In this document: positions 7,734 to 32,260 of the stretch, in pieces
Layout of the letters: each line of letters opens with the position of its first letter
How positions within the stretch are numbered: the stretch's first letter is position 1
Virus record (IMG/VR): IMGVR_UViG_3300037493_005672
Location: 1-37,596 of that record
Direction: 5' to 3' (one strand)
DNA length: 37,596 nucleotides
Origin: a virus
Made by a program: the position numbers and the translations under genes
Notes under the pieces: model-generated
What the model was told of the DNA's origin: nothing
The model's input: the letters and a program-made list of their open reading frames with translations, nothing else
Databases searched by the model: none

Positions 7734-10700
7734 TCAAAAAGTAATAAGTCCTAAAGAAATACATTTCTCAACACTTTCCGATGCTTGTTTTCTTATTGTT
7801 TGAACAGATTGTGCGTTTGCTAAGATCCAATTATTTCTTTGTTGTGTTGTTTGAAAACTTTTAGTTGGCCACCATTCAATCCATAACAAGACTAAACTTT
7901 CAATAAATAAATCCTTAGTATTCCATTTGTATTCAGGGTCGGAATTGTATAATTTTTTTCCATTTATCGGATTCGAATAGTAAGTTGAGATAAAATCTAC
8001 TGACTTATCAAAATCCGAAAACACCGCATACGGAACTGATACGCCATTCGATGTTGTTCTACAACCAAATGATTCGTTGAAGAACTTTCTTCGTTCACCA
8101 TAAGTAATTCCTGAGTAAACGGTTCCTCCGAATGGGGTACCACCCAAATCAAAGTCATAAGTGATGAACTTGTTATCATCATGACCATTTGCATATGCTG
8201 TGAAGAATATCAAACCTTTCAATATTTGATTATAACCTTTATCCTTAAGCAACTTTGACAAATCACCAAATGTAATTTCACGTTTTGATGATTCTACACC
8301 AACATAGTTTCTGTATTTTTGATTTGCGACTTGCATGTCCGAAATACATCTAACAGGATCTGCTGGAGTAAAGGTTTGATTTGTTTGTATGGAGTTTCCA
8401 ACTGAAATAACATTTTTTGTAACAACTTGTGATTCAGTATCTTTTAGTCTCTGTACACCCAACACCAATTCACTCAACAAACTCTGATTTAAACTGAGAA
8501 TTTGTTTAGTAATTTTTGGTATCGATACAACTGGCATTCTGAGTCCTGTAAAAAAAGTTTTGAAGTCTCCACCATCGATGACGTGTTCCACCGATTGTAT
8601 CATATAAGGCCCATAAAACATCGGAACATGTTGAAGATTAAAATACATAGTAGGTTGTATCATAACATTACCCAATGATTCTACTCTACATTCGTAACTT
8701 CTTGTTTTATAGTAATTGTATAGACCAAGACTTTGTCCGACAGCTCGTTTACCACCAGCTTGTAGAGCTATACCCGTAATCACCCTATTTGATTCAGTCG
8801 TGGCTGCAGCAGAATTTTGATCCAATTGTATAGAATAAAATATACCTTGATTTCTATTACCAAAGTCGACATTAAATCCAACAACTTTATTGGATAAGGC
8901 GAAATTTACTTCTTCACCTGTTGATCTCGATAACGAATTCCTTCCCCCACATTCGAAGGTAAAGGCATCGGTCTTAAATCGGTAATCTTGATTTTCCTTT
9001 AAGTTAAGATGTTCGGAAGGTTTTCCTACAAAGTAACAAACTAACTTGGGTGATGATTCGCGGTAATCAACCTCAAGATAAGTTCCAAATAATGAATTTG
9101 CTAAATCCTGAGATGTTTCTGTCCTTGGTCTCTGCCCATCAACAGACTCACCTATACCCCAAAAATTAACGTATGCCGGCATTGGCATCATTTGGAATTT
9201 GTTGTCGGCAAATATCTTACTCACAAAATCAATAATACGAGCGTTGGTTTGAGCAGTGCTTGATAAAAAATTCTTAAGTTTCAATACATCTAAAAGAACC
9301 TCATTTCCTATATCTCTATTTGCACGATCTAAAAATAGAACATCTTGAAAAAGGGTTCTATTTTGGAATTCACCACCTGATATCCATTTGTCGTTGAAGG
9401 CTTTGAATGTTTCCCATAGTTCTAATTTCTGTTCATCTCCGTCTAAACCGGAAAGAATTGGTTTTTCATTAGATTGTTCTACGTTTGGTAATTGTTTTTG
9501 TAGACTAAAAAATAACTGTGTTAAAATTTGACTTACTAAGGTATCTTTATCGGTATAATATGTGTTGATGTTCTCAATAAATTGTGTTGACCCATAGTTT
9601 CCATCCGCCAACAATTTTTGTGTACCATAAATCTTAATAAGGGGTGCAAATGTTTGAACATTTGCAACGGTAAACTGAACATTCATATCAATAAAGAAGT
9701 CTGTAAAATAACTCCCTGTATTAGAATAAATCATGTCAGGTGTCGTTGCAAAACCTACATAGGTATACATCGAATTCCACTCTTGTGGAAACGCGGCTAT
9801 TGATTGTGCAAGAGTAATAGTTCCACTACTCGATGGTAAAGTATTTTGTACATATGGATTATACGTAAAGGGATCAAAGACCCTATTGGATGGTAAGGTA
9901 GTAAATGAACCCCATAATTTTCTATCAAAATTACTTGGATTACCGTAACGAAATACCACATCATAATTCAAGAAAGTCTCGATTGTGTCAGTAATTTTAA
10001 TAGCCTGCTTTTCCGATACTTTTTTGACATAATCCTCTGACGAGATTTGGTTGTCGGGAGTATCAATAGTCAAAAGTTCTTGCATCAAAAATTGAAAGTT
10101 CTTATTGACAGAACTTGGTCCTGATACGACATCTTTTTCTACGTCTTTTGTACTCACCGAAAACTTTAAGAATTCTTGTTCAAACTCATCCAATATTTCC
10201 GTTTTAAATACCCCAAATATCTCCTCAATAAACGAATACTCTGACCCTAAACTAAAAGCCTCTGAATTTTTTGTGTTGGGTTTTATTAACTTGAAATACT
10301 GATCATATTGTGGTTTTTCGATACTTGGTAGTTCGAAGTATCCGAAATTCGGTGCTTGCCAAAAAGTTCGGAAACTACCGTTGAATACTGCGGTGTTGTT
10401 CAATACCTCTTGAGTAATGAATTCTCCAGTTGGACTATCCTCAAAACATTCTGATAATACCTGATTTGTATTGGAACCAAAACAAGGCATTACAATTGTT
10501 TGATTCTGCAGGGATGGGATAAACTTAGTTGAATCCTTTGTGTCAAAAGATGTAAACCAAGTTCTTAAGGTTAGAAGTCTACTTGGGTCGTTTGCATCAA
10601 AACCTAATGGTAATTCAATATTACTATTACTAATATTTCCTACGTTTAAACCCTCTGAGATGGCCGCATTCATTTCCGTATCACTATAGGTGGTAAACAA

Positions 10701-13700
10701 ATCCTGACCTGTCATAAGAAAATAAATGTTATTTATCATACCGGGATAAAAACCAAGGTTCATAATCGAGTTCGTAAATGATCCAAGGGGTAAAAAGTTA
10801 TTTTGGTTGGTAATTTGAATTACAAGATTGTTTTGACCAACAATCTCGAGTGGTATATTTTTCTGATTATTAAACTTATAGGTTTTATCTGGGTCATCAG
10901 TAATCGGATCGTAAAGATTTAAATAATCAATATTGTTCCAAACCGAATCTAATATATCAACGTTAGTTTCAATATATGTTTTATATCTATGCCATATAGA
11001 TCCGTACCTTAAGATCCATGCGTATGGTAGTTTGTGAACGCCTCCGAACTTGGTGAGTGTAGAAAACATAAAATCTAACTCCTCAACAATTGTTGGTTCA
11101 ACATTCTTGTACCTTTCTCTCAATGTGATCAGTGGAAGAGAGTTTAAAAATAAATAAGCTGGTTTTACATACGGATATAATGAACCTCCATTCCTATCTA
11201 ACTCAACACCTTCGTTTATAGCATTTATAAAAAATGGTGTATTAAACATCGATGTGGTTTGGTCTCCTGCTAAATTACCAGTCTTGTTCTGATAAGTAAG
11301 TGGACCCTCTGTAACAAATAACTTTTCAGAACGACGTTCAGTGTAAAATGTATTCAAATCTTTTGTTTGACCGTTTGAGTCGTCAAGATTTGGTGTGTTT
11401 ACACTTAAAAAATCGGAGTTTGTAAACGGCCGATTATTATTTTGGTTGAAATTTGTCTGATAATTAGTTATAAACTTTTTGGTATCATTTACAAATAAAC
11501 TATGTGTTGTATCGAAGGGATTGTCATTCCCGGCAGAACTTCCCAAATTTGTAGTTGTCCAAGGCGAGTAGACAAACGGATAAAGATCCGCTATATCAGT
11601 TTGATTCGATTTTGTTAATCTTACAAACTCAGTTAGTTTACTATAAGATTCGACAGTCTGTGCGGTCGATTCGGAAGCATTCGATATGCTCGTGTTAGAC
11701 AAAATTGAAAAATCTTTTGTAGTAATTGCCCTTAGATAATCAGATGTGAATTCACCTCTAATTAATTGCTGATAACTTGGTCCTTGTCCATCATTCGATG
11801 CACTTCTAAGAACTTCTAAATAATTTGCAGAAGTGAATGCAAGATTTTTTAAGGTTTTGGTCAGACTTGGACTTGATCCTAATAAAGATGTTTGGATATT
11901 GATATTTTCAATATCCGATAATGTTTTGTATAACTCTAAATCTTGCGGAATTCCTTTAGAAAATCTATCCCAATATGAAGCTAAGAAAACTCTTTCGTAA
12001 ATTTCATAGAGGAATTTAACAACCTGATAGTCCGAATATGGAATATTGGTCATCGGAAATTCGATACCATTTGCCGATAATCTAAGAATAGTTCGAGACA
12101 AGTTAGCATTCCCATTTGGTGCTGGTGGGTTATCAGCAGTTCTTGATATTCCTTTGATGTATTCTTCAACAAACTCAACTTCGGGCCATGATTGGAAATC
12201 ATTCGCACCAGTTCTTGATATTTCTGATTTATCTCCAGGATATCTTAACTCAAATGGCTCATCGTCTTCCGAATTAGTATCGACAAAATATTGTGGCCAA
12301 GGATAAACAGGTATTTCAGATAAACTCTGAATTTCAAGTGTGGGCGTATTATCTTTAGTGTCAGAACTCGCTGAACTCAATGTATTATTGAAAATTGCTT
12401 GTTTTCTTTTTGGATTAGTTCGTTGACTCCAAGCTGAACTATGTACGTCATCCATCATCAAATAAAATGCCTCGACAGAGGCAAAAATCATTGCCATAAT
12501 ATTTTTTATCGTAGGCCTGAATCCTAAACCATTTGGTCCTTCAATTTTTTTATTCAAAAAAACTGTGAGAGCTAAAACAACTTTTTCTTTTTGTTTAGAT
12601 ATATCACCAATAATTTGATTGTATAAACCATCAAAATTGTTTTCACCGTCAAATACAAAATTATACGTCGGATAGGTAGCAACTTCATTACCAACACGAA
12701 TTGCCGTTGGTCTAAAAAACTTTAGGTTTTCAGATTCAAACTGTATTAATTCTGTTTGAGTTGGTTTTCTTTTGTTTCTTTGTTCGAAAGTTTTCTCGAA
12801 ATCAATTTCTTTTGATGTAATTGCTTTTCTGAAAGTATCCTCAATTAGAACATTATCGTTGTTGACACTTTTTGAAGGATTATTAATTATAATTTTATCA
12901 ATAGTGGTGATCTTTGTTGTACTATCAGTAATATTATCGATTGTAAAAGAACCATTTAATCCTAAGGTGGGGTTTTTTGCTAAAGCACTTTTATAGTTTG
13001 TTACAAGTTGTACTAACTGACTGTAAGCATCTAACTGAGCTTGAGTGTTGTTGATATTGTTCTTGAAAACATATGTCTGTAAAACTTCAGGTTCTGTATT
13101 TTCTGCGGTGTCTTCTTTCCTTCCTTTGTATACAAATACCAGTGTTCGATCGATATATCTCGAGAACCAAGATGTGTCATCATTACCATAAACATCATTA
13201 TAAAAATCGTTAATTAATTTTATGTAATTCTGTATATCTGATAAAGGTGTAAAATCTGTTTGTCCAAATCCCTGCAAAATATTTTTTTCTAATAATTCTA
13301 ATCGTGCTAATAAAGATGGAACTGAAAGTTCAGGTAAATCAGGTGATATTAATCCCAATCGTTTATATTTTGCATACATGTTATTGATATTGGACTGACC
13401 TTTTGTTGTTCTTACATTAGATGTTAAGGTCAAATCGTTACCAACACTTGCTCTTGCGGCTTGAATCGCGGGTGGTTCCTGTCCACTAGATTGTACTCTG
13501 AAATCAGAAGTGTACATAAATGGTGTCGCAAACAAGGCACCAACCTGTGTTTCGGCTAAAATGGTATATTTGTAAGAATAAAACTTTAAACTTATTCTGT
13601 AGTTCCCAGAATTACCCTCGAAAGCCGCAGAAAAGTTTGTCATTACAAGTTGATACTTTATAGCCTTTCCGTAAAATCCTTTTAGTGTCAAAAAGAATAT

Positions 13701-14264
13701 TGGGTATGGAAGATTAAAAAATGCGGCATATTCTGAGTTTTCACCTTTTTCAAATAAAGCTCTACCCTGTGTATCAATCAAAACGATGTCAACAGTTGGT
13801 GTGGCACTTCTTGTGTTTTTTATCCTTATTGACTCAATTCCAAGTAAACCAGTGTCCAAAGAATTTATAACATTTTGACTAAAATAAAATTCGTCTGTTT
13901 TGTTTTCTTGAGTGATTTTTGTTCTACTTGGTTGATTAGTACCTTTACCATTGACGGTATTGAGACCTGTAATTTCATCTAAGTAATCATTCCTGAGTGT
14001 GGTACGTCCTCCCGGTCTCAAGAAGTTCATAGTCGCCAACTGAACATTTTGAATAGCATCACTAATTGGGGATCCGACAGCTAACTTCGTACGAGGAATG
14101 ACCCTTGCCTCCAAATTAGCATACATTACCAAATTCTCATGAGCTAGTTTCCTCTCTGATACAGAACCATTTATATTCTGTGTTTTATTGGGATCTACTA
14201 ATATAATGTTTTGACAGTCAAAGTCGACAAAAATATTGTCATTAGTCGTTATGTTATCTGCCAT
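7734..14264 (-). CDS. Giant baseplate hub-like structural protein (2176 aa)
   Basis: This is the largest gene in the window. Most of it is Asn/Thr/Ser/Tyr-rich, as in phage baseplate and fibre proteins, with no signal peptide or membrane helix. Near ~1855-1910 the block SYECRVESLGNVMIQPTMYF...GPYMIQSVEHVIDGGDF resembles the hub (gpD/gp27-type) fold of contractile tails, in which such a strand pattern precedes the central spike. The last ~180 residues (from ITFGDLSKLLKDKGYNQIL) look like a separate globular domain with FSDFDKSVDFISTYY, reminiscent of glucosaminidase-type segments, but no catalytic residue can be assigned. The ATG at 14264 overlaps the stop of the gp53-like gene by 11 bp, indicating translational coupling. 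A baseplate role is well supported by context; fine homology is not. Confidence 0.8.
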   Translation of the reverse strand: MADNITTNDNIFVDFDCQNIILVDPNKTQNINGSVSERKLAHENLVMYANLEARVIPRTKLAVGSPISDAIQNVQLATMNFLRPGGRTTLRNDYLDEITGLNTVNGKGTNQPSRTKITQENKTDEFYFSQNVINSLDTGLLGIESIRIKNTRSATPTVDIVLIDTQGRALFEKGENSEYAAFFNLPYPIFFLTLKGFYGKAIKYQLVMTNFSAAFEGNSGNYRISLKFYSYKYTILAETQVGALFATPFMYTSDFRVQSSGQEPPAIQAARASVGNDLTLTSNVRTTKGQSNINNMYAKYKRLGLISPDLPELSVPSLLARLELLEKNILQGFGQTDFTPLSDIQNYIKLINDFYNDVYGNDDTSWFSRYIDRTLVFVYKGRKEDTAENTEPEVLQTYVFKNNINNTQAQLDAYSQLVQLVTNYKSALAKNPTLGLNGSFTIDNITDSTTKITTIDKIIINNPSKSVNNDNVLIEDTFRKAITSKEIDFEKTFEQRNKRKPTQTELIQFESENLKFFRPTAIRVGNEVATYPTYNFVFDGENNFDGLYNQIIGDISKQKEKVVLALTVFLNKKIEGPNGLGFRPTIKNIMAMIFASVEAFYLMMDDVHSSAWSQRTNPKRKQAIFNNTLSSASSDTKDNTPTLEIQSLSEIPVYPWPQYFVDTNSEDDEPFELRYPGDKSEISRTGANDFQSWPEVEFVEEYIKGISRTADNPPAPNGNANLSRTILRLSANGIEFPMTNIPYSDYQVVKFLYEIYERVFLASYWDRFSKGIPQDLELYKTLSDIENINIQTSLLGSSPSLTKTLKNLAFTSANYLEVLRSASNDGQGPSYQQLIRGEFTSDYLRAITTKDFSILSNTSISNASESTAQTVESYSKLTEFVRLTKSNQTDIADLYPFVYSPWTTTNLGSSAGNDNPFDTTHSLFVNDTKKFITNYQTNFNQNNNRPFTNSDFLSVNTPNLDDSNGQTKDLNTFYTERRSEKLFVTEGPLTYQNKTGNLAGDQTTSMFNTPFFINAINEGVELDRNGGSLYPYVKPAYLFLNSLPLITLRERYKNVEPTIVEELDFMFSTLTKFGGVHKLPYAWILRYGSIWHRYKTYIETNVDILDSVWNNIDYLNLYDPITDDPDKTYKFNNQKNIPLEIVGQNNLVIQITNQNNFLPLGSFTNSIMNLGFYPGMINNIYFLMTGQDLFTTYSDTEMNAAISEGLNVGNISNSNIELPLGFDANDPSRLLTLRTWFTSFDTKDSTKFIPSLQNQTIVMPCFGSNTNQVLSECFEDSPTGEFITQEVLNNTAVFNGSFRTFWQAPNFGYFELPSIEKPQYDQYFKLIKPNTKNSEAFSLGSEYSFIEEIFGVFKTEILDEFEQEFLKFSVSTKDVEKDVVSGPSSVNKNFQFLMQELLTIDTPDNQISSEDYVKKVSEKQAIKITDTIETFLNYDVVFRYGNPSNFDRKLWGSFTTLPSNRVFDPFTYNPYVQNTLPSSSGTITLAQSIAAFPQEWNSMYTYVGFATTPDMIYSNTGSYFTDFFIDMNVQFTVANVQTFAPLIKIYGTQKLLADGNYGSTQFIENINTYYTDKDTLVSQILTQLFFSLQKQLPNVEQSNEKPILSGLDGDEQKLELWETFKAFNDKWISGGEFQNRTLFQDVLFLDRANRDIGNEVLLDVLKLKNFLSSTAQTNARIIDFVSKIFADNKFQMMPMPAYVNFWGIGESVDGQRPRTETSQDLANSLFGTYLEVDYRESSPKLVCYFVGKPSEHLNLKENQDYRFKTDAFTFECGGRNSLSRSTGEEVNFALSNKVVGFNVDFGNRNQGIFYSIQLDQNSAAATTESNRVITGIALQAGGKRAVGQSLGLYNYYKTRSYECRVESLGNVMIQPTMYFNLQHVPMFYGPYMIQSVEHVIDGGDFKTFFTGLRMPVVSIPKITKQILSLNQSLLSELVLGVQRLKDTESQVVTKNVISVGNSIQTNQTFTPADPVRCISDMQVANQKYRNYVGVESSKREITFGDLSKLLKDKGYNQILKGLIFFTAYANGHDDNKFITYDFDLGGTPFGGTVYSGITYGERRKFFNESFGCRTTSNGVSVPYAVFSDFDKSVDFISTYYSNPINGKKLYNSDPEYKWNTKDLFIESLVLLWIEWWPTKSFQTTQQRNNWILANAQSVQTIRKQASESVEKCISLGLITF

Positions 14265-14574
14265 AGTAGAGGAAGTAGTTGTCTATACCATTTTTATAGT
14301 CCTGTAATGAAGATATGAGAGGGTAAGGAATTGTCAAGATAGAATTGTTGGGTATGTTCCACTCCAATCCACCGTACTGAGGGTTTGCCTGTAAAATTAA
14401 CCAACTAAAAAAAGGAGTACCATAAAACTCTTGTGATACCTTGTCCAACCTACTTATACCTGTTCGGTAAATAAATCTTTGGTCTGATGTCTTACTAGGA
14501 AGTGGTACAAAAGGCACAACCGTTTGTTCTCCGTTCACAAAAAATTGTTGGTATCTATTATAATAAGCGTCCAT
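14254..14574 (-). CDS. 53: Baseplate wedge protein, gp53/LysM-like
   Basis: This 106-aa protein combines YRTGISRLDKVSQEFYGTPF, WLILQANPQ and NIPNNSILTIPYPL. That is the order of a LysM-like module (time-of-assembly domain, 'D.IS..fYG...w.Il..N.....p..i..G..l.IP'), as in T4 gp53 and short tail X-type proteins that clamp wedge subunits to the hub. T4 gp53 is longer (196 aa), so this would be a minimal version. Its ATG overlaps the stop of the upstream 1657-aa gene by one base (TAATG), and its own stop overlaps the start of the giant hub-like gene, so the three are translated as a coupled set. The assignment rests on motif order and neighbourhood. Confidence 0.7.
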   Translation of the reverse strand: MDAYYNRYQQFFVNGEQTVVPFVPLPSKTSDQRFIYRTGISRLDKVSQEFYGTPFFSWLILQANPQYGGLEWNIPNNSILTIPYPLISSLQDYKNGIDNYFLYYGR

Positions 14575-17500
14575 TAGTTAAATTTTCGTTTGAAGTTATA
14601 CGGGTTTGTCTGTGCCGTGTTATTTTTGGGGGCATAAATGTCCTGAAGTGTTTTCTTAGTTTGATTTGTTGCGGATAGATCAGTAGAAAATAAAACCAAT
14701 CTTTCTTGTGATGTTCCAAATGTTGGTGTGTATTTGTCATAAATCAAGCCAGTAGTACTCGTTCTGTATGTTTGTAAGATTGCTTTGTTATTGTCATTGA
14801 TTTTTTTCCATATATTAAAACGTGAATCTACATTATTTAAACCATTATAGTAAAAATCAATTGCATTACTCGTAGCCAAATCCAAACCCACTTTCAATGC
14901 GTCTATAAACCCTTGTCTATTGGAATCAATAAGTAAGGCTCTTGACATCATCATGTATTCTAACTTACCATCGTCGGTAGGAAGTAAGGTGTTTGTTATC
15001 GTATCAGATGCTGATGGTGTATATGATCCTGTGTTTTTATCATAGGAACCACCCACATACAAATTAGCGGCAGTTAGATCTGTTAAGAAACTACCAATAT
15101 TAGTTGCCAACAAAGTTGCATCTACACCCAATTTAGTATAGGAGTTAACCGAAACTTGATTTACCACTTCAGTGGTTCCTGTAGTTGTAAATATTTCAGA
15201 TATATTCTGTGTGTTTATCTTACCATCATACCCATTTGTACCAACAGTAGGTCCGTTGAGAACAAAGTTAATTCTATCGATATTGAAAACCAATTGTTGT
15301 TCAATTTGAACTAACGTTGTAATATTTTCACTTACTCCATTTAGGAAACCACTCTTATAGGTCAATACATAATCGTTGTAGTTTTTCTTGAACAACCTTT
15401 TTTGTGCATTTGTAATCTGAGGGTTTTGAAACGAAGAATCTAAAAAAATTGGTATATCATTATCATTGATTGCTTTCAATAATTTAGTAAATGAGTTATC
15501 AATATATGTTTGATATTGTAAAGGTTTACCATAAATTGCCGTTGTAGTGGTGTTAATAGTTCCTGTATTATATCCTTGATTGTTTCGTAAATTACTATTT
15601 AAAAGTGATAAGATACCATAGTTGTAATTACCCAAAATGTTTTCAAAATAAGTGAATGTTCCACTGAAATAAGCTTGGGTTTGTTCAACTAACTTATTCA
15701 TTAAATTTTTATACGCAATAGTTCCTGTTGATCCCGAGGCTGTTTGACCTGTTATTGATTGGATACCGATGGTATTTCCCCCATCTGTCGTTACTTCTGT
15801 TGATACATTTGATGCTCCAACAACAGGATTTTGTCGATTCAGTGCATCAACAATTTCTTTGTCTAACCTACTTGTATCTTCAGTTGCTTCTGCCCTTTCA
15901 TCATACATTTCGGTGTTGGCATAATAGTTAAAGGATAAAGCGTTTTGTAAGGTGTCGATAGGGTTTCTCAATCCATTTCCACCAACCATATTGAATGATA
16001 AACTAACATCAACAATCATAGGTTGGAACCCGATACCTTCAGGATTTAGATCAAAGGTTTTATCATAATTAAAACTTAAACCTTTTGGTATTATCTTGGT
16101 ATTATAAAAATCACCAACCCTCAAAACCAACACTGGTGGTGCTCCGAATGATGTGTTTATAGCATCGTTATACTTTTTTTCAGCAACACCATTCGGACCT
16201 GTTTCAATTGTTGGGATTGTATCACCGGGTCTCATACATTGTTGTAAGAAGGTAAGTCGAGCGTTCAATCCTTCAGGTGTCATAGAGTGAAACGATGGTT
16301 GGAAATACTTTATCTTTTCTTTTATCGAATCGTATATCATTGGATTATCCACCTTCATTACTTCAAAATAGTCACACTCACTTAACAAAAACCTCAAAAG
16401 TTTTTTCGAAGCTCCTTTGTATAAAGATTGAGTTGGTTGAACCACTTCTACTAACTTTTCACTACCAGGTTTTATAGGTTGTTCTTTTAAACCATCTTTC
16501 GCCAAATTAGCCTGAACACCAATATTGTTTGGTTGAGGTTGTGGTGCTATTGGATTGATCGTTACGTCCGTTACTGTTACAGCTCTACAAGCCATTGCTT
16601 GAGGTGAATAGATTTTATCACTGCCCGTCAATTCTGAAGTACAGTTGAAAGGACCTAGTGAAAATCCTCTAATAGAGTTTCCACCTGAGGATATTACTCT
16701 TGGATTGGCTCGACTGACTTCTCCCTGAGCATCTTCCTGAAAAATTACCTTTCCTTCATCAATAAATTTTGTTAAACTTTTACCACCAGGAAAACTAAAA
16801 GTTTTGAAGAAATTTTCTACACTACTAATTCTTCTTGAGGAAAGTTTGTCGTTATAACCAACTGATTGTGGTGCTGATGCTGAACCTACAAGTTTTACAG
16901 AAATACTTTCAGCCTGTTTTTGTTGTAGTATGTCAAATATTTTAGATCCAAACTCCTGTAATTGAGTGAAGTTGGGTTCTATCGTATCACTGAAAAACAA
17001 TTCAACCCCCGTCTTATTACTACTATTTGCCTGATTTACGTAATTTGATTTATTAGATGTTGAAGTATAAGTGCCATATAAATCCTGATAATTCGCAGAA
17101 GTTGTCAAACTTGGATTTGTTCCAGGAATGTCGTTATCGAAATAAAAGGCGAAATTCTTAAATTGGTCTAAAGTGTCGACAGGTGTTGCTTCAGTAGCAC
17201 TTGATCCCGCTCCACCACCCGTTGGTGCAACACCCTGCTCTGTATTGATACTCTGTTCTGCGGTTTGTTGCTGTTCATTCGATATATTTGGATTATTAAT
17301 AATTTCTTGCCACGCTTGAAGTTCGGTAAGGGGAACGGTGTTATATATTTTAGCCAACTCATAGAGATCGTATTTTTTACATCCAGCAAAAAACGAGTTT
17401 ACTATAGAGTCCACTTTTTGACGATCTCCCTCGTTAGCCAACACCTTATTGACGATCAAATTAAGGATAGAAGGATGATCAACAATAATCTTCCATTTTA

Positions 17501-23886: not shown

Positions 23887-26800
23887 TTAGATATTCTCAA
23901 AAGATGCACCCGTCGGAGTAATCAAGAATTCGATATCGATGAATTCAAGAGCTCTTGTTGGTTTTAGGTAGATCTTTCCTGACATGGTATTTCTATCCAA
24001 ATCTTCAGGGGAGCTACTTACGGTCACACGGAAGTCATAAAGACCACGGTCTCTTCTGATTCCATCAAGGATCGGATTGACCGAGTCAAGGAAATCCTGA
24101 CGAACCTTAGCGTCATTTTGTTCGAACAACAATCTGACAGCCACCGCAGAGATCAACTTACGTGCTTGTAGTAATAATCTTCTTACATTTATTCTGTTGA
24201 GTGCCGTATCGGCAATCTGTAGAGTCTTGTTACCGAAGATAACAGTACCGACATCAGAGAACGTAGCAATCGGGTTGATACGACCCTGATAAAGGGTGTC
24301 TCTTTGGTCTTGTGTTAGTTTGATACGAGCCTTTACAGCGTTTACCAAACCACGTGTGTAACCCGCAGCTGCGAACCAAGGGAAGGAAATATTGTCCGTT
24401 AGAGCCAAGTTTCTACATACCTCATTGGTGGGGGGGATATAGATTTGAGTGTTATTGACAGTATCCCTAACTAAAATCCAAGGATAGTAAGTTGCCGTAT
24501 AGTTGGAGTCTAAACCGATTTGATCGAGTCTATCAACAGCCGTTGTTGGTGGTACGATATTATCTGTCTGTGTTGGAAGATACAAATTACTATCAGGTGT
24601 TGTCACGATGTAGATCGCGTCTGCCCTTTGGAATGTAATCATATCAACAGCTTCTTCAACCAAGTTACTATTGTTGATGTAATCAATACCAGGAGTAGCA
24701 AAAACGTTGATGTTTACCGCTTCAGGATTTTGGAATGTTGCGATACCCAAATAGTATGCGTAATAATCAGTGTTAGAGAATTCAGCGAACCCTTCTTGAG
24801 TGGTTGTTTTGAATGCTCCCCATCCTGTTGCGAGTGGGTAACGAGTTGTTGGACAAGCTCCTTTCTGCCACAAACTTCCACCAATTACGTATCGGTCGTC
24901 ATTTGTTCTATTTTCACGATAGATATCCCATCCATCAAAACCACCTTGAAGAAGGAATGAGTACTTTCTTGCTTGAATGGTGTAGTATGGGTTAGTAGGA
25001 TTGGTAGGATCTGATTGGAAGGAAGCATCACCACAATCGAATGCTGGTGTTCCAGCAGTCGGTCCCGTAGTAATAGTCACGACTGTTGCTCCTGAGTCCA
25101 TATGGAATCCTTTAGTTATATAGTTCCAACGAAGTGGATCGGTCTCGATACACAAATTGCTAGGAACTTGTTTTCCTTTGTATAAATAGAAATCGGGGTC
25201 ATAACCAATTTGTGAAGATATACCTAAGAAGGTACGTCTCACATTATCTCCTGGGGAAATAATTGGGTTAGGACCAGCAGGAATATTAAAAGGTGGATTA
25301 CCGATAACCTCACCAGGAAAGTCATACGAAGTTTTATATACTGGATAAGGGGGTTGAGCATTTCCATAATCACGGATAACATACCCTTCAAAACCACACG
25401 GGAGTGAATCAATCGGTGCTGTTACGTTTAGTTCCAACATAATATATTTGGAATTCAATGCGTATTCACCGTCAGATGTGCCAATTTGTACACCAACATA
25501 ACTATTATTACCTGGATCCATACTACAACCTACATACTTTTCTAAGTAGACAGGATTAGAGTCGGTATCGAAGAAACTTCTTACCCCTAAGTCAAATGTT
25601 CCATTATTGAATGAAATATTTTGAATTGAAATTTTAACCTGTGTGTTTGCGGTGTCACCATCAGCAATAGAAATAATTCTAAATAGTTTATCAACTGAAG
25701 TACCACGAAGTTCAGAAACAACCCAAGGTGACTCAGCACTTTGGTATTTATCTAAGTAATATGCAATTGTGTCTGTATTAGGAGAATATCTCAGACCGGG
25801 TAGTGATATCAAGGAAGCGTTTAGTCCCCTAATTAACCCTTTATTGTAACCGAGGTTCAACATGTTTTGGAATGTTTCTTCAACAAACAAAGGTACCTCA
25901 TTTCTCGGTTTTCCAAAGTTTGTACCGCCAAAGACCTTTGTAATGTAATTCTGATCCGAACTATTCATAGAAGTGGTAAAAGCAAAGTCAGTACCATCTG
26001 TAGTTACACCCGAAATATTGAATGTTGCGTAAGGACTTGTACTAATACCTGAATAGATACCACTATTATCGATAATGACATCTGTAAGTCCCGATACAGT
26101 GTAAATCGGTCCTGAGTTAGCTCCACCGTACAATGAAATACCTCTCGAACGTAAAGTTGCTACAACCAAGTTGTTATAGTCATTGAATGCTGTTCCTGAA
26201 TAAGTGTATATAAAACCTGATACGGTTCCTGAGTAACAACCACTTCCTAAATCATCAAGTGCACTTACTATACTATAGAAAGAATATCCGGTGTAATTGT
26301 TACCTGTAGATATGTCAAAGTTAGAATAATACCAAGCATCGTTATTAGGTGAAGTATAGTCAGCATTACTTTGAGAAAGTCCCGATACCTGAAACACATT
26401 TGTTTCAGCTGTATAAACAGGTGATAGTGAAGTGTAAGCAGCATCCGTAATTGTTCCGAAGTATGAAATAGTAGATCCTGAATCAAGACCTCCGGTAGCA
26501 ATTAATTCCAACAACTGATCATTTATGTCATCAGACAGGGTAGTTTGTGAACCATTCAATTGTGTATATGGTAAATTCAAATTATTATTAATAATTGATG
26601 GGAATGAAGTTAAGAATGAAACCGAGGTGTCACCAGTACAAGCCGAAAAATTCACTGACCAAGCAATAGGGGAACTTGAGAAACCAACGGTTGAACCATC
26701 AACGTTAGCAATTGTTGTGATAGACCAAGAAGGACCCGCATCATAACCTGATAGACCCAAAACCCGTGTTACAAATAATTGGTTTGATTGTTGCAAATAA

Positions 26801-27048
26801 GATTTAGCAATATATGCTAATTCATATTTTGGAATTTGTGTATTAACAAATTTCTCGGGTAATGTCCCTCCGAAAAATGCCTCGAATTCATCATAATTAG
26901 TGATGAAAATAGGTTCGAAAGCTGGTCCTGTAATTGTTTCACCAACTAATCCCAAGGTTGTTACACCAACACTCTGAGAAACGAAACTTAGGTCTCTCTC
27001 TGAGGTGTATACACCTGGAGAAACGAATATTTTATTTGATACTGCCAT
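23887..27048 (-). CDS. 18: Tail sheath protein, gp18-like, enlarged
   Basis: This is the contractile sheath subunit, 1053 aa against 659 in T4 gp18. The N-terminus (FVSPGVYTSERDLSFVSQSV, then GLVGETITGPAFEPIFITNY) and C-terminus (LFEQNDAKVRQDFLDSVNPI, then GLYDFRVTVSSSPEDLDRNT and IYLKPTRALEFIDIEFLITP) are typical sheath blocks forming the inner, polymerising domain. Between them, roughly residues 110-600, lies a long Ser/Thr/Tyr/Gly/Asn-rich region with recurring strand-turn patterns such as SGCYSGTVSGFIYTYSGTAF and YTVSGLTDVIIDNSGIYSGI. It is probably an extra surface-exposed beta domain set inserted in the sheath. A TATTTAT element lies 34 bp upstream, and the ATG is preceded by TAATAAA with no Shine-Dalgarno. 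Confidence 0.93.
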   Translation of the reverse strand: MAVSNKIFVSPGVYTSERDLSFVSQSVGVTTLGLVGETITGPAFEPIFITNYDEFEAFFGGTLPEKFVNTQIPKYELAYIAKSYLQQSNQLFVTRVLGLSGYDAGPSWSITTIANVDGSTVGFSSSPIAWSVNFSACTGDTSVSFLTSFPSIINNNLNLPYTQLNGSQTTLSDDINDQLLELIATGGLDSGSTISYFGTITDAAYTSLSPVYTAETNVFQVSGLSQSNADYTSPNNDAWYYSNFDISTGNNYTGYSFYSIVSALDDLGSGCYSGTVSGFIYTYSGTAFNDYNNLVVATLRSRGISLYGGANSGPIYTVSGLTDVIIDNSGIYSGISTSPYATFNISGVTTDGTDFAFTTSMNSSDQNYITKVFGGTNFGKPRNEVPLFVEETFQNMLNLGYNKGLIRGLNASLISLPGLRYSPNTDTIAYYLDKYQSAESPWVVSELRGTSVDKLFRIISIADGDTANTQVKISIQNISFNNGTFDLGVRSFFDTDSNPVYLEKYVGCSMDPGNNSYVGVQIGTSDGEYALNSKYIMLELNVTAPIDSLPCGFEGYVIRDYGNAQPPYPVYKTSYDFPGEVIGNPPFNIPAGPNPIISPGDNVRRTFLGISSQIGYDPDFYLYKGKQVPSNLCIETDPLRWNYITKGFHMDSGATVVTITTGPTAGTPAFDCGDASFQSDPTNPTNPYYTIQARKYSFLLQGGFDGWDIYRENRTNDDRYVIGGSLWQKGACPTTRYPLATGWGAFKTTTQEGFAEFSNTDYYAYYLGIATFQNPEAVNINVFATPGIDYINNSNLVEEAVDMITFQRADAIYIVTTPDSNLYLPTQTDNIVPPTTAVDRLDQIGLDSNYTATYYPWILVRDTVNNTQIYIPPTNEVCRNLALTDNISFPWFAAAGYTRGLVNAVKARIKLTQDQRDTLYQGRINPIATFSDVGTVIFGNKTLQIADTALNRINVRRLLLQARKLISAVAVRLLFEQNDAKVRQDFLDSVNPILDGIRRDRGLYDFRVTVSSSPEDLDRNTMSGKIYLKPTRALEFIDIEFLITPTGASFENI

Positions 27049-28919: not shown

Positions 28920-30686
28920 TTGGAGAATCTTGATAACATAACCGATGTCGGAGTATTGGAAAGAAAGGCCCTTTATATTTTGGAACAATATGAAGGTGCT
29001 AATAACTATATCTTGCGTCTGAAAGTAAAAATGTTGGATAATCCAAAATTCTATCCTACACGATCTCAATCAGAATACATTATGAACTTTCATTCGAGAG
29101 TTCCTAAAATTGCAAAAAAATGGGTTGACTTAGACCCATATTTTGCTCAAAAAATTGCTGATGACAAATTATTTACCAAAGTACCAACAAACATCTACGT
29201 TGAAAAACTTTTGGTAGAAAAAGATACATCATACCATATTTGGGGTAAATTTTTTGAAAAAGAAGTTTGTTCTGATTTATGGTTACCAAAGGTAGCTCTA
29301 ATCAAGGATAACACCGTAAAGAATGTAGATATAGATTATTTACCATATTCACATCGTCCTCCACTTGATCATCAAAAGGAAGCAATTCAAAAACTTTGTG
29401 AAAACAAAAAAATGATTTTAGCCGATGACATGGGTTTGGGCAAGACAACCAGCACAATCATAGCGGCGTTGGAGACCAAAGTAAAAAAAATAATGATTAT
29501 TTGTCCGGCATCCTTAAAGATCAACTGGCAAAGAGAAATAGAAAATTATACAGACAGATCAACATCTATAATCGAAGGAAAAAAATGGGAAGATGCCGAT
29601 TTTGTAATTATAAATTATGACATTATAAAAAACTTCCACGATGAAAAAAACAAAAAGGATTCAATTATTCTAAATTCCAAGTTTGACTTAGTGGTAATTG
29701 ATGAAGCTCACTATGTACAGAATAAACAAGCACAGAGAACCAAACTTATAAATGATTTTGCATTGAAAGTGGATCGACTATGGCTTCTCACGGGTACCCC
29801 CATCACAAGTCGTCCTATCAATTACTACAACCTTCTAAATTTAATTGATTCACCCGTTGCCGTAAATTGGATGGCATATGTCAGAAGATACTGTAATGGA
29901 TTTCAGTTTAGAGCCGGTAAAAGAAAAGTATGGAATGTCAGCGGATCCTCCAACTTGGAAGAACTCCGTGATAGGACAAAACCATTGGTTCTCAGAAGGC
30001 TCAAAGAAAATGTCCTTGACCTACCCGATAAGATCATCACACCAGTGTATCTAAGACTTCGTTCACGGGTATATGAAGAGATGATGGGTGACTATTATGA
30101 TTGGTACGATAAAAGTGGTGACGGGGACTCTTTGACCCTTCAGTTTAGTAAGTTGACACAGGTACGTCAGTGTATCGCACAGGAGAAGGTATCATCAACG
30201 ATAGAAATTTGTGAGAATATTATCGAACAGGAAAAAAAGGTAATTGTTTTTACCAACTTCACAAAATCGTTGGAGATGATATTGGAACATTTCGGCAAGA
30301 AGGCGGTAAGGCTCGATGGATCGATGAACCAACGTCAAAGACAAGAGTCGGTAGATAAGTTTCAAAACGATGATAGTGTCAGGGTATTTGTGGGAAATAT
30401 AAAAGCGGCAGGAACTGGTATTACCTTAACCGCTGGCGAAGCGGTGGTGATGAACGATTTATCATTCCTTCCGTCAGACCACTCCCAATCAGAAGATCGG
30501 GCATATCGTTATGGACAAAAAAATAATGTTTTGGTTTATTACCCCATTTTTGATAACACCATCGAAGGGATTATCTATGACATCCTAAGAAAGAAAAAAG
30601 ACATATTCGAAACAATTATGGGAGACAAAGAATCCACGGGAGAGTTCGTTGAAGAAATTCTCAAGTCGATCAACAGTAGAAGATAA
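28920..30686 (+). CDS. SNF2-family DNA helicase/translocase (SMARCAL1-like; UvsW-type role)
   Basis: This 588-aa superfamily 2 protein has an N-terminal ~130-residue region (YILRLKVKMLDNPKFYPTRS), then the Swi2/Snf2 motor. Motifs include PPLDHQKEAIQKL (Q region), DDMGLGKTT (Walker A, ~169-177), IICPASLKINWQRE (Ia), VVIDEAHYVQN (II, ~258-268), WLLTGTPI (III), VIVFTNFTKSLEMI, VRLDGSMNQRQRQESVDKF and SQSEDRAYRYGQ (VI). SMARCAL1-type enzymes anneal ssDNA and remodel stalled forks, a task performed by the related UvsW in T4, so a role in fork restart or recombination is likely. The frame opens with TTG; no ATG lies near the N-terminus. It begins the plus-strand group. Confidence 0.9.
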   Translation: MENLDNITDVGVLERKALYILEQYEGANNYILRLKVKMLDNPKFYPTRSQSEYIMNFHSRVPKIAKKWVDLDPYFAQKIADDKLFTKVPTNIYVEKLLVEKDTSYHIWGKFFEKEVCSDLWLPKVALIKDNTVKNVDIDYLPYSHRPPLDHQKEAIQKLCENKKMILADDMGLGKTTSTIIAALETKVKKIMIICPASLKINWQREIENYTDRSTSIIEGKKWEDADFVIINYDIIKNFHDEKNKKDSIILNSKFDLVVIDEAHYVQNKQAQRTKLINDFALKVDRLWLLTGTPITSRPINYYNLLNLIDSPVAVNWMAYVRRYCNGFQFRAGKRKVWNVSGSSNLEELRDRTKPLVLRRLKENVLDLPDKIITPVYLRLRSRVYEEMMGDYYDWYDKSGDGDSLTLQFSKLTQVRQCIAQEKVSSTIEICENIIEQEKKVIVFTNFTKSLEMILEHFGKKAVRLDGSMNQRQRQESVDKFQNDDSVRVFVGNIKAAGTGITLTAGEAVVMNDLSFLPSDHSQSEDRAYRYGQKNNVLVYYPIFDNTIEGIIYDILRKKKDIFETIMGDKESTGEFVEEILKSINSRR

Positions 30687-30696
30687 TGTGTCAAGG

Positions 30697-30703
30697 TATT
30701 TAT
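30697..30703 (+). promoter_or_regulatory. TATTTAT upstream element of the SOD-fusion gene
   Basis: Sense-strand GTATTTATTA ends 27 bp before the ATG at 30731, in the short gap after the helicase gene. Confidence 0.45.
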
Positions 30704-30730: not shown

Positions 30731-32260
30731 ATGAGAAACCTAAAAAAACAGATTCACGAGATTGAAGAAAATCTCAGAAACAAACAAATTGTAAAAGAAG
30801 AATCCCTTCAAGAAGCCAAGAGAATCAGAGCCGAGAAATTACCATACGCGTATTCATCACTTCGTCAGTTCATTGACCCTGAAACGATGGAGATCCACTA
30901 CAACAAACACTACAAAGGTTATATTACAAAACTCAACGATGCGTTGGAAGGAAAAAACTTGGGTGACATCTCACTTGAGGAAATAATAAGGGGTATCGAA
31001 AGATACTCCAAAGTTGTACGTGACAACGCAGGGGGCGCATACAACCACGGTATCTTTTGGAAGATGTTATCCCCCACCGAAACAAAGGTAGGTGAGGAAA
31101 CAATGAAGAAGATCAACTCGAGCTTTGGTTCGTTTATAAACTTCAAAAAGAAATTTGAAGAAGAATCCAAAAAAAGATTCGGATCAGGGTGGTCGTGGCT
31201 TGTTCTTACCAAAAGGGGAACAATGAAGATTATGACAACTGCAAACCAAGATAACCCCCTGATGGATATTATCAAAGAAGGTGGGTATCCCCTTCTCGGG
31301 TTGGACTTATGGGAACATGCTTATTATCTGAAATACAGAAACAAAAGGGATGAATACATCAAAAACTTTTGGAAGGTGGTGAATTGGGACTTTGTAGAAT
31401 CGGAACTACAGAGGATCGAAGGGAAAAACGTCAAAGAAAGTTTGACGGCAAAAAAATTCCTTACAGAACAGAAAATGTCAAACCCTTGTACCAAGGACGA
31501 TAAAAGAAAGATCAGGGAAATGTTCAATAACAATCCACAGATACTGCAGATTTATAGACAAGGAGTAGAAAAAATTTTAGAAAAGGTATATCCCGACAAG
31601 TGGTATAAAAATAACGAATATCAAAAGGGGATGTCCTCAGGGGTCTATGACTTGGAAAAACCAGGTAGATCAATTATTAATTATTTGAATACCAACTACA
31701 GCGCATTTTGTCCGTTACTAAAAGACCTAAATAAGGTTTTAATTGCCAATGGAAAAAACCCGATCGAATTTGAAGGATTGTCGAAAGAAGATCAAATCAA
31801 TGAGATGTACGATATGTTGCAGGTTATCTTTCAACTAAAAGACAGAATATTTGACGAAAAATCCAAAACATTTCAAAATATATTTCAGATTTTGAATACC
31901 ACATCTACAATGGGTTCGAAGACGGAAGATTTCGTGGAGAACAAATTTCAGGAAAAGTTTGGTCCTGAGAACGTAAAAAGAATCGGAGCTTTGGGAAGCA
32001 AAGAAGATATGATGGGTGTGGATCTCAAAGTTTTTACAAACGGAAAACTACACACCGCACAGGTAAAACCATATGACTCTGTCGAAGAAATTGATGATAT
32101 GATACGAGTATCAGGTACCGCTAACGTAAAGTCATATAACACCGATTGGATGGTATTTGTCCGTAGAGGAAAAGATTTTATAGTCTTTGATAACACCAAT
32201 TCTCAGATTATCGACGGAACTTATAATTTTCCTGTAGACTCTTTGTTGTACCAATTCTAA
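30731..32260 (+). CDS. Mn-type superoxide dismutase fused to a PD-(D/E)XK nuclease-like domain
   Basis: This 509-aa protein has three parts. Residues 1-35 are a charged helix. Residues ~36-232 form a complete Fe/Mn superoxide dismutase: LPYAYSSLRQFIDP, EIHYNKHYKGY (His ligand and gateway Tyr), YNHGIFW (His), GSGWSWLV, TANQDNPL and GLDLWEHAYYLKY (Asp, His), so all four metal ligands are kept. Gly in AGGAYNH together with Gln in ANQD fits the Mn-type rather than the Fe-type. After the linker LTAKKFLTEQKM, residues ~249-509 hold a second region. There, GSKTEDFVENKFQEKFG, GVDLKVFTNG and LHTAQVKPYD give the E...D...QxK pattern of PD-(D/E)XK nucleases. The SOD part is secure; the nuclease-like part is a motif reading. 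A function linking the two is unknown. Confidence 0.85.
   Translation: MRNLKKQIHEIEENLRNKQIVKEESLQEAKRIRAEKLPYAYSSLRQFIDPETMEIHYNKHYKGYITKLNDALEGKNLGDISLEEIIRGIERYSKVVRDNAGGAYNHGIFWKMLSPTETKVGEETMKKINSSFGSFINFKKKFEEESKKRFGSGWSWLVLTKRGTMKIMTTANQDNPLMDIIKEGGYPLLGLDLWEHAYYLKYRNKRDEYIKNFWKVVNWDFVESELQRIEGKNVKESLTAKKFLTEQKMSNPCTKDDKRKIREMFNNNPQILQIYRQGVEKILEKVYPDKWYKNNEYQKGMSSGVYDLEKPGRSIINYLNTNYSAFCPLLKDLNKVLIANGKNPIEFEGLSKEDQINEMYDMLQVIFQLKDRIFDEKSKTFQNIFQILNTTSTMGSKTEDFVENKFQEKFGPENVKRIGALGSKEDMMGVDLKVFTNGKLHTAQVKPYDSVEEIDDMIRVSGTANVKSYNTDWMVFVRRGKDFIVFDNTNSQIIDGTYNFPVDSLLYQF

Follow-up and report, generated by a model that had tools for sequence, protein, structure and literature searches.

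A superoxide dismutase-nuclease fusion gene of T4-like jumbo phages, a candidate head-packaged cargo polyprotein

Introduction

In bacteriophage T4, the protease gp21 cleaves after L/I-X-E, and a capsid-targeting sequence (CTS) alone packages foreign proteins, including nucleases (PMC9026906; PMC3012670). Giant phages follow the same Glu rule with different residues at P3 (PMC5694885). Packaged, protease-processed internal proteins and phage-encoded superoxide dismutases (SODs) are already known, as is a virus-packaged SOD, namely the Cu/Zn enzyme that chlorovirus PBCV-1 encodes in a late gene and carries in its virion (PMC7019647). Here we describe a phage gene in which an Mn-type SOD is fused to a predicted nuclease. 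No description of the combination of SOD and nuclease, of the two-site linker between them or of the nuclease family was found in the open-access literature searched, where a search for phage SOD fusions also returned nothing relevant.

Results and Discussion

A recurrent SOD-nuclease fusion

The window, i.e., the whole stretch of 37,596 nucleotides of viral DNA analysed here, carries a fusion gene composed, in this order, of a leader, an Mn-type SOD, a linker, a region of helices and, at the C-terminus, a PD-(D/E)XK nuclease domain:

30731..32260, plus strand: SOD-nuclease fusion ORF, 509 aa, ATG start (open frame throughout; full-length homologues)
30836..31411, plus strand: Fe/Mn superoxide dismutase domain, aa 36-227 (Pfam, PDB and NCBIfam matches; invariant ligands)
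31487..31903, plus strand: conserved helical region, aa 253-391 (motif GVYDLExxGRSxINxxNTNYxxFC; invariant alignment columns)
31904..32257, plus strand: PD-(D/E)XK nuclease domain, aa ~392-509 (Foldseek and VIA-align matches; E399, D431, Q444-x-K446)

The original prediction, made from the DNA sequence, was of an SOD that continues without any stop into a C-terminal region, and we indeed found a single 509-aa ORF with the quoted motifs in place. It had also proposed searching for the same domain pair in other phages. A scan of viral contigs yielded 225 relatives, and the best 80 of these 225, which were retained, matched nearly all over approximately the full length and at 46-75% identity. Further scans raised the number of distinct full fusions to at least 107 IMG/VR sequences from many separate metagenome assemblies, from which we drew a nonredundant set of 37 with mutual identity below 80%. 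As the same fusion recurs in more than 100 distinct sequences from many separate assemblies, we reject an assembly error or chimera. H56, H60, Y64, H106, Q173, D192 and H196 in the SOD domain, as well as E399, D426, D431, Q444 and K446 in the C-terminal half, are identical in all 107 fusions; such invariance of SOD ligands and nuclease residues places the domain pairing and its motifs far beyond chance. The fusion family is widespread among T4-like jumbo phages and apparently undescribed. One fused protein, A0A6J5L953, is present in BFVD, so the fusion sequence itself has already been deposited; common as the fusion is in public data, its nuclease half has been overlooked under the label 'superoxide dismutase', the only one that this entry bears.

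The SOD domain is of the Mn type

Over aa 36-224, Pfam detected both Sod_Fe_N (E 3e-20; 72.9 bits, curated cut-off 27) and Sod_Fe_C (E 1e-39; 134.7 bits, cut-off 20.9). The four metal ligands that had been predicted correspond to H56, H106, D192 and H196, and these, like the second-sphere residues H60, Y64 and Q173, are kept in 107/107 fusions. The closest PDB relatives of the domain are MnSODs (6gsc, E 6e-61), the NCBIfam model for SOD[Mn] outscores that for SOD[Fe], and the Mn-type residues G102 and Q173 are invariant in the fusions. From these residues and the best PDB and NCBIfam matches, we infer that the predicted SOD prefers Mn. Its nearest relatives in the PDB and in cellular genomes share 45-51% identity, and matches to the SOD half in named phage genomes are all stand-alone SODs. 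The nearest cellular SODs belong mainly to Bacteroidota in a scan reporting exact peptide matches only, which weakly suggests Bacteroidota as hosts of this phage group.

The C-terminal half carries a PD-(D/E)XK nuclease fold

Between the linker and the nuclease lie ~140 conserved helical residues that the original prediction did not mention. An AlphaFold2 model from the 37-sequence alignment had a mean pLDDT of 85.7, with values mostly of 80-95 in the helical region and of ~90 in the nuclease domain. The leading Foldseek matches in the PDB were I-Ssp6803I (rank 1, E 5e-3, probability 1.00), Hjc and NhoI. PD-(D/E)XK enzymes also dominate the VIA-align list over model residues 172-290, in which archaeal Hjc Holliday-junction resolvases rank first (Z 8.9, 3.5 A, 102 residues aligned), effectively tied with NhoI (Z 8.1) and I-Ssp6803I (Z 7.6); with Z below ~9 and 9% identity, Hjc is not separable from other PD-(D/E)XK enzymes. 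After the QxK strand, the model continues with strands, in the place that the second core helix takes in many enzymes of the superfamily. These fold scores are modest. Nevertheless, their consistency, together with the invariant E-D-QxK, identifies the last ~120 residues as a PD-(D/E)XK nuclease by fold, in line with what had been read from the motifs alone, and argues against a chance motif. The predicted nuclease may cut DNA in a metal-dependent manner.

Searched against the Pfam, PHROG and NCBIfam profiles and against the sequences in the PDB, residues ~228-509 gave no significant match. As no described nuclease family in these collections matches, the domain would count as a new PD-(D/E)XK family. 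A tail-tube PHROG match to the C-terminal half (E 0.02-0.06) was weak and taken as chance. One low-power pattern scan found no cellular homologue of this half, and among named phage genomes the only one to match, weakly, was LR745206, of 634 kb. This distant relative (L170:5740-6495, 251 aa) is a stand-alone protein encoded beside a DNA polymerase-like ORF, and its neighbours have a common MxxxKxFNE-type N-terminus; a search started from it likewise found no cellular homologue. A marine-phage protein of 1113 aa, A0A8D9CCA0, carries the same C-terminal half.

The first Foldseek rank of I-Ssp6803I, an enzyme in which QxK replaces ExK just as it does here, might point to a selfish gene of the homing-endonuclease type that captured an SOD. 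We consider this most improbable: the gene occupies one syntenic slot in SOD-bearing and SOD-less loci alike, is inherited within deep clades and has no intron or intein border.

Genomic context and a TATTTAT box

The surroundings of the fusion gene comprise the following features:

28920..30686, plus strand: SNF2-type helicase, upstream neighbour (Pfam SNF2-rel_dom, E 1e-30)
30697..30703, plus strand: TATTTAT box, promoter-like, 34 nt upstream of the fusion start codon
32291..33409, plus strand: neck/head-tail adaptor-like protein, downstream neighbour (phrog_211, head-tail adaptor Ad2, E 1e-9)

Genes for a tail sheath, a tail tube, a baseplate hub and a neck protein mark the window as a fragment of a T4-like myovirus without its head gene cluster. 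The tail sheath is unusually long (1053 aa, 23887-27048), and two giant ORFs of 2176 aa (7734-14264) and 1657 aa (14574-19547) are present, the latter without a PHROG match. The gene is constantly preceded by that for the SNF2 helicase, SOD-less loci included. In one relative, the helicase gene (L150:5078-7957) has an intein-like insertion exactly at Walker A (DDMGLGK^C...HN^TTS), and an HNH-like ORF lies near it (10401-11117).

TATTTAT occurs 11-41 nt upstream of 101 of the 107 fusion genes, as against 1.6% of random 60-nt stretches from the same loci. In the window, it stands 15-45 nt upstream of 10 genes (at positions including 30697, 32269, 27089, 22966, 21464, 19571 and 28892), mostly virion genes: those for the tail sheath, the tail tube and the neck protein, the 1657-aa ORF, a 615-aa ORF and others. 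On the opposite strand, TATTTAT reads as a stretch of the T4 late promoter box, and it is a candidate, probably late, promoter of this phage group.

Two of these observations count against a head-packaged product. On its upstream side, the gene adjoins a helicase of DNA metabolism rather than a head gene, and the box also precedes a DnaB-like helicase gene in the window, whereas none was seen immediately before the capsid gene in relatives. The helicase neighbour would suit a bifunctional or moonlighting recombination enzyme that is made in the infected cell and stays unpackaged, e.g., an Hjc-like resolvase or debranching nuclease working with the SNF2 helicase, while the SOD guards DNA or metal balance during replication. 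The top VIA-align matches to Hjc, the constant helicase neighbour and the UvsX-, SSB- and DnaB-like genes in the window all favour such an enzyme. Nevertheless, we judge it unlikely, albeit the strongest of the alternatives, as Hjc does not stand apart from other PD-(D/E)XK enzymes, the gene has its own box in common with tail genes, and the conserved sites described below are left unexplained. A role in recombination and packaging can also be combined, for instance in a packaged resolvase.

Conserved (L/I/V)-x-E sites at the part boundaries

The remaining parts of the protein are a leader and three candidate cleavage sites (the slash follows the Glu):

30731..30814, plus strand: leader at the N-terminus, aa 1-28 (predicted to be helical; a candidate propeptide for capsid targeting)
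30806..30814, plus strand: putative prohead-protease site 1, LQE/A, aa 26-28 ([LIV]xE in 37/37 nonredundant fusions)
31430..31438, plus strand: putative prohead-protease site 2, VKE/S, aa 234-236 ([LIV]xE in 37/37)
31460..31468, plus strand: putative prohead-protease site 3, LTE/Q, aa 244-246 ([LI]xE in 36/37)

The leader varies in sequence and, with 28 aa in the window, differs in length among relatives in either direction, yet it ends in [LIV]xE in 100/100 fusions, with V at P3 in three of the 37 nonredundant ones. Across this set, only five positions hold [LIV]xE at 90% or more (26-28, 193-195 at the SOD metal site, 234-236, 244-246 and 356-358), and three of the five coincide with part boundaries, i.e., the junction of leader and SOD (E28) and the linker between SOD and nuclease (E236 and E246). 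Of the 25 linker columns, whose mean identity is 0.49, only E236 and E246 reach 0.97 or more, and E28 stands out in the leader in the same way. The linker is predicted to be disordered (pLDDT 42-47). The LTE-Q noticed originally as a match to the T4 gp21 consensus is thus conserved; it is not a single site, however, but one of three conserved (L/I/V)-x-E at part boundaries, which strengthens it as a candidate for prohead cleavage. L/I-x-E is a short motif, and the conserved Glu could serve another purpose. An unpackaged recombination enzyme accounts neither for a variable leader with an invariant LxE nor for two such sites in the linker.

The guess of cleavage in the prohead gains further support from relatives that encode the T4-type machinery. 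Both genes are missing from the window; among 15 long relatives (up to 322 kb), nine have a prohead protease (PF03420), and ten have a gp23-type capsid protein (PF07068) above the cut-off. The capsid protein itself bears INE/A at residues 58-60 in 8/8 aligned sequences, in the fuller form LINE/A, at a place equivalent to residue 65, where T4 gp23 is cut (PMC5694885).

SOD-less lineages and paralogues

Three lineages lack the SOD, L151/L155 (309 aa), L150 (298 aa) and L269-L291 (294 aa), their genes occupying the slot of the fusion or being the same reduced gene. Each keeps an N-terminal leader (full length in one, shortened in the others), an LxE just before the nuclease half (ISE or LSE as the counterpart of site 3) and the nuclease with E399, D431, Q444 and K446. 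The tree demands at least three changes between the SOD-bearing and SOD-less states. L150 and L151 are nested among SOD-bearing sequences and thus represent at least two losses; the third lineage is either another loss, under midpoint rooting, or the position of the root, followed by one gain. The SOD was therefore lost at least twice, probably three times, as far as the tree tells, and is an optional module of the gene. Besides these lineages, the gene is split by a frameshift in L122, possibly a sequencing error.

C253 (31487-31489) and C327 (31709-31711) are invariant in SOD-bearing and SOD-less proteins alike. The original prediction had offered a redox-gated nuclease among its readings, which is disfavoured, as the nuclease survives with the same invariant residues where the SOD is gone and both cysteines also persist there. 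The dispensability of the SOD also speaks against a structural reading, in which the protein stays uncut in the head or neck and is required for completing the head or for packaging, the SOD being a passenger or serving dimerisation. In favour of this reading, MnSODs form stable dimers, and the gene adjoins that for the neck/head-tail adaptor. A purely structural role, however, does not predict that the SOD and the nuclease each keep their catalytic residues unchanged in 107 fusions, and we regard this reading as quite improbable.

Divergent paralogues of the helical and PD-(D/E)XK half were found in a 322-kb and a 295-kb phage (L195:2360-3313 and L303:1441-2520). Their leaders, MKITISEGQYKILSE in L195 and MGFKFLKILKTIITE in L303, end in IxE. 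The L195 paralogue adjoins the prohead protease gene, and L303:1-825 is an ORF of IEDTIQNGVKET-type repeats. Dozens of small, otherwise unlike ORFs open with a common leader, MK(I/V/L)(I/V)I(T/N)E(S/N)Q..., in many cases with LLE after it (L272, minus strand, at 10236, 10622 and 11011; L155/L243, L274, L279 and many others). The leader looks like a genome-wide head-targeting tag; if it is one, a large set of packaged proteins is predicted.

A probable packaged and processed cargo polyprotein

With the competing readings weighed, we consider it probable from sequence comparison that the gene product is a cargo polyprotein targeted to the head, that cleavage in the prohead separates its SOD from its nuclease, and that both enter the bacterium together with the genome. 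This is the simplest account of the combined evidence: LxE sites at the part boundaries, a disordered linker, protease and gp23 genes in relatives, LxE- or IxE-ended leaders kept by SOD-less forms and paralogues, and a TATTTAT box common to virion genes. The polyprotein would be expressed late from the gene's own TATTTAT-box promoter and be carried by its leader into the prohead core, as are IPI-III and Alt of T4 by their capsid-targeting sequences. A T4-gp21-like prohead protease would then cleave after E28, E236 and E246. The leader and a linker peptide of 10 residues would thereby be cut away, and SOD and nuclease would be set free inside the head. Both enzymes would stay with the DNA and be injected at infection; the nuclease would then act on DNA of the host or of a competitor, or on branched DNA of the phage itself, while the SOD would remove superoxide. 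More tentatively, we propose the full scenario, that T4-like jumbo phages, probably of Bacteroidota, carry this polyprotein in the head and cut it into two separately injected enzymes.

If the cargo polyprotein is genuine, a tailed phage delivers an antioxidant enzyme along with its genome, which would link superoxide with the opening minutes of infection. The polyprotein would, moreover, be a natural case of head-packaged multi-enzyme cargo split by a maturation protease, previously achieved through T4 engineering only. The idea can be tested directly by way of the three motif positions and the sister lineages that lack the SOD.

Comparison with known systems

The SOD half resembles Fe/Mn superoxide dismutases (PF00081/PF02777) in its full domain, all ligands and the Mn-type Gln in NQD, and differs from them by the attached leader and nuclease. 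Stand-alone phage SODs, those of PA5oct-like jumbo phages and Vibrio phage 2.275.O, are far remoter (27-32% identity). With Hjc, I-Ssp6803I and NhoI, the protein has in common the fold of aa ~392-509 and the E-D-QxK order; it differs in matching no nuclease profile of Pfam, PHROGs or NCBIfam and in its extra conserved helical region. The SOD of PBCV-1 is likewise virus-encoded, and its late expression and packaging are established (PMC7019647); it belongs to an unrelated SOD family, serves a virus of an algal host and is unfused, without proteolytic release. Phage polyvalent proteins, too, are effectors of several domains for which packaging and injection are predicted, and the paper describing them does not contain the word 'superoxide' (PMC5512222).

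A further parallel is the T4 system of IPI-III, Alt and gp21, which shares the LxE site after an N-terminal leader and the late-type gene context; a T4-type protease and a gp23 capsid protein are also present in fusion-bearing phages, as seen in the long relatives. The T4 CTS comprises 10-20 residues as against 28 in the candidate targeting leader described here. Unlike the T4 internal proteins, the fusion is a single chain in which a linker with two sites joins SOD and nuclease, and whereas the packaging of nucleases in T4 was engineered (PMC9026906), the phages described here may have arrived at it naturally.
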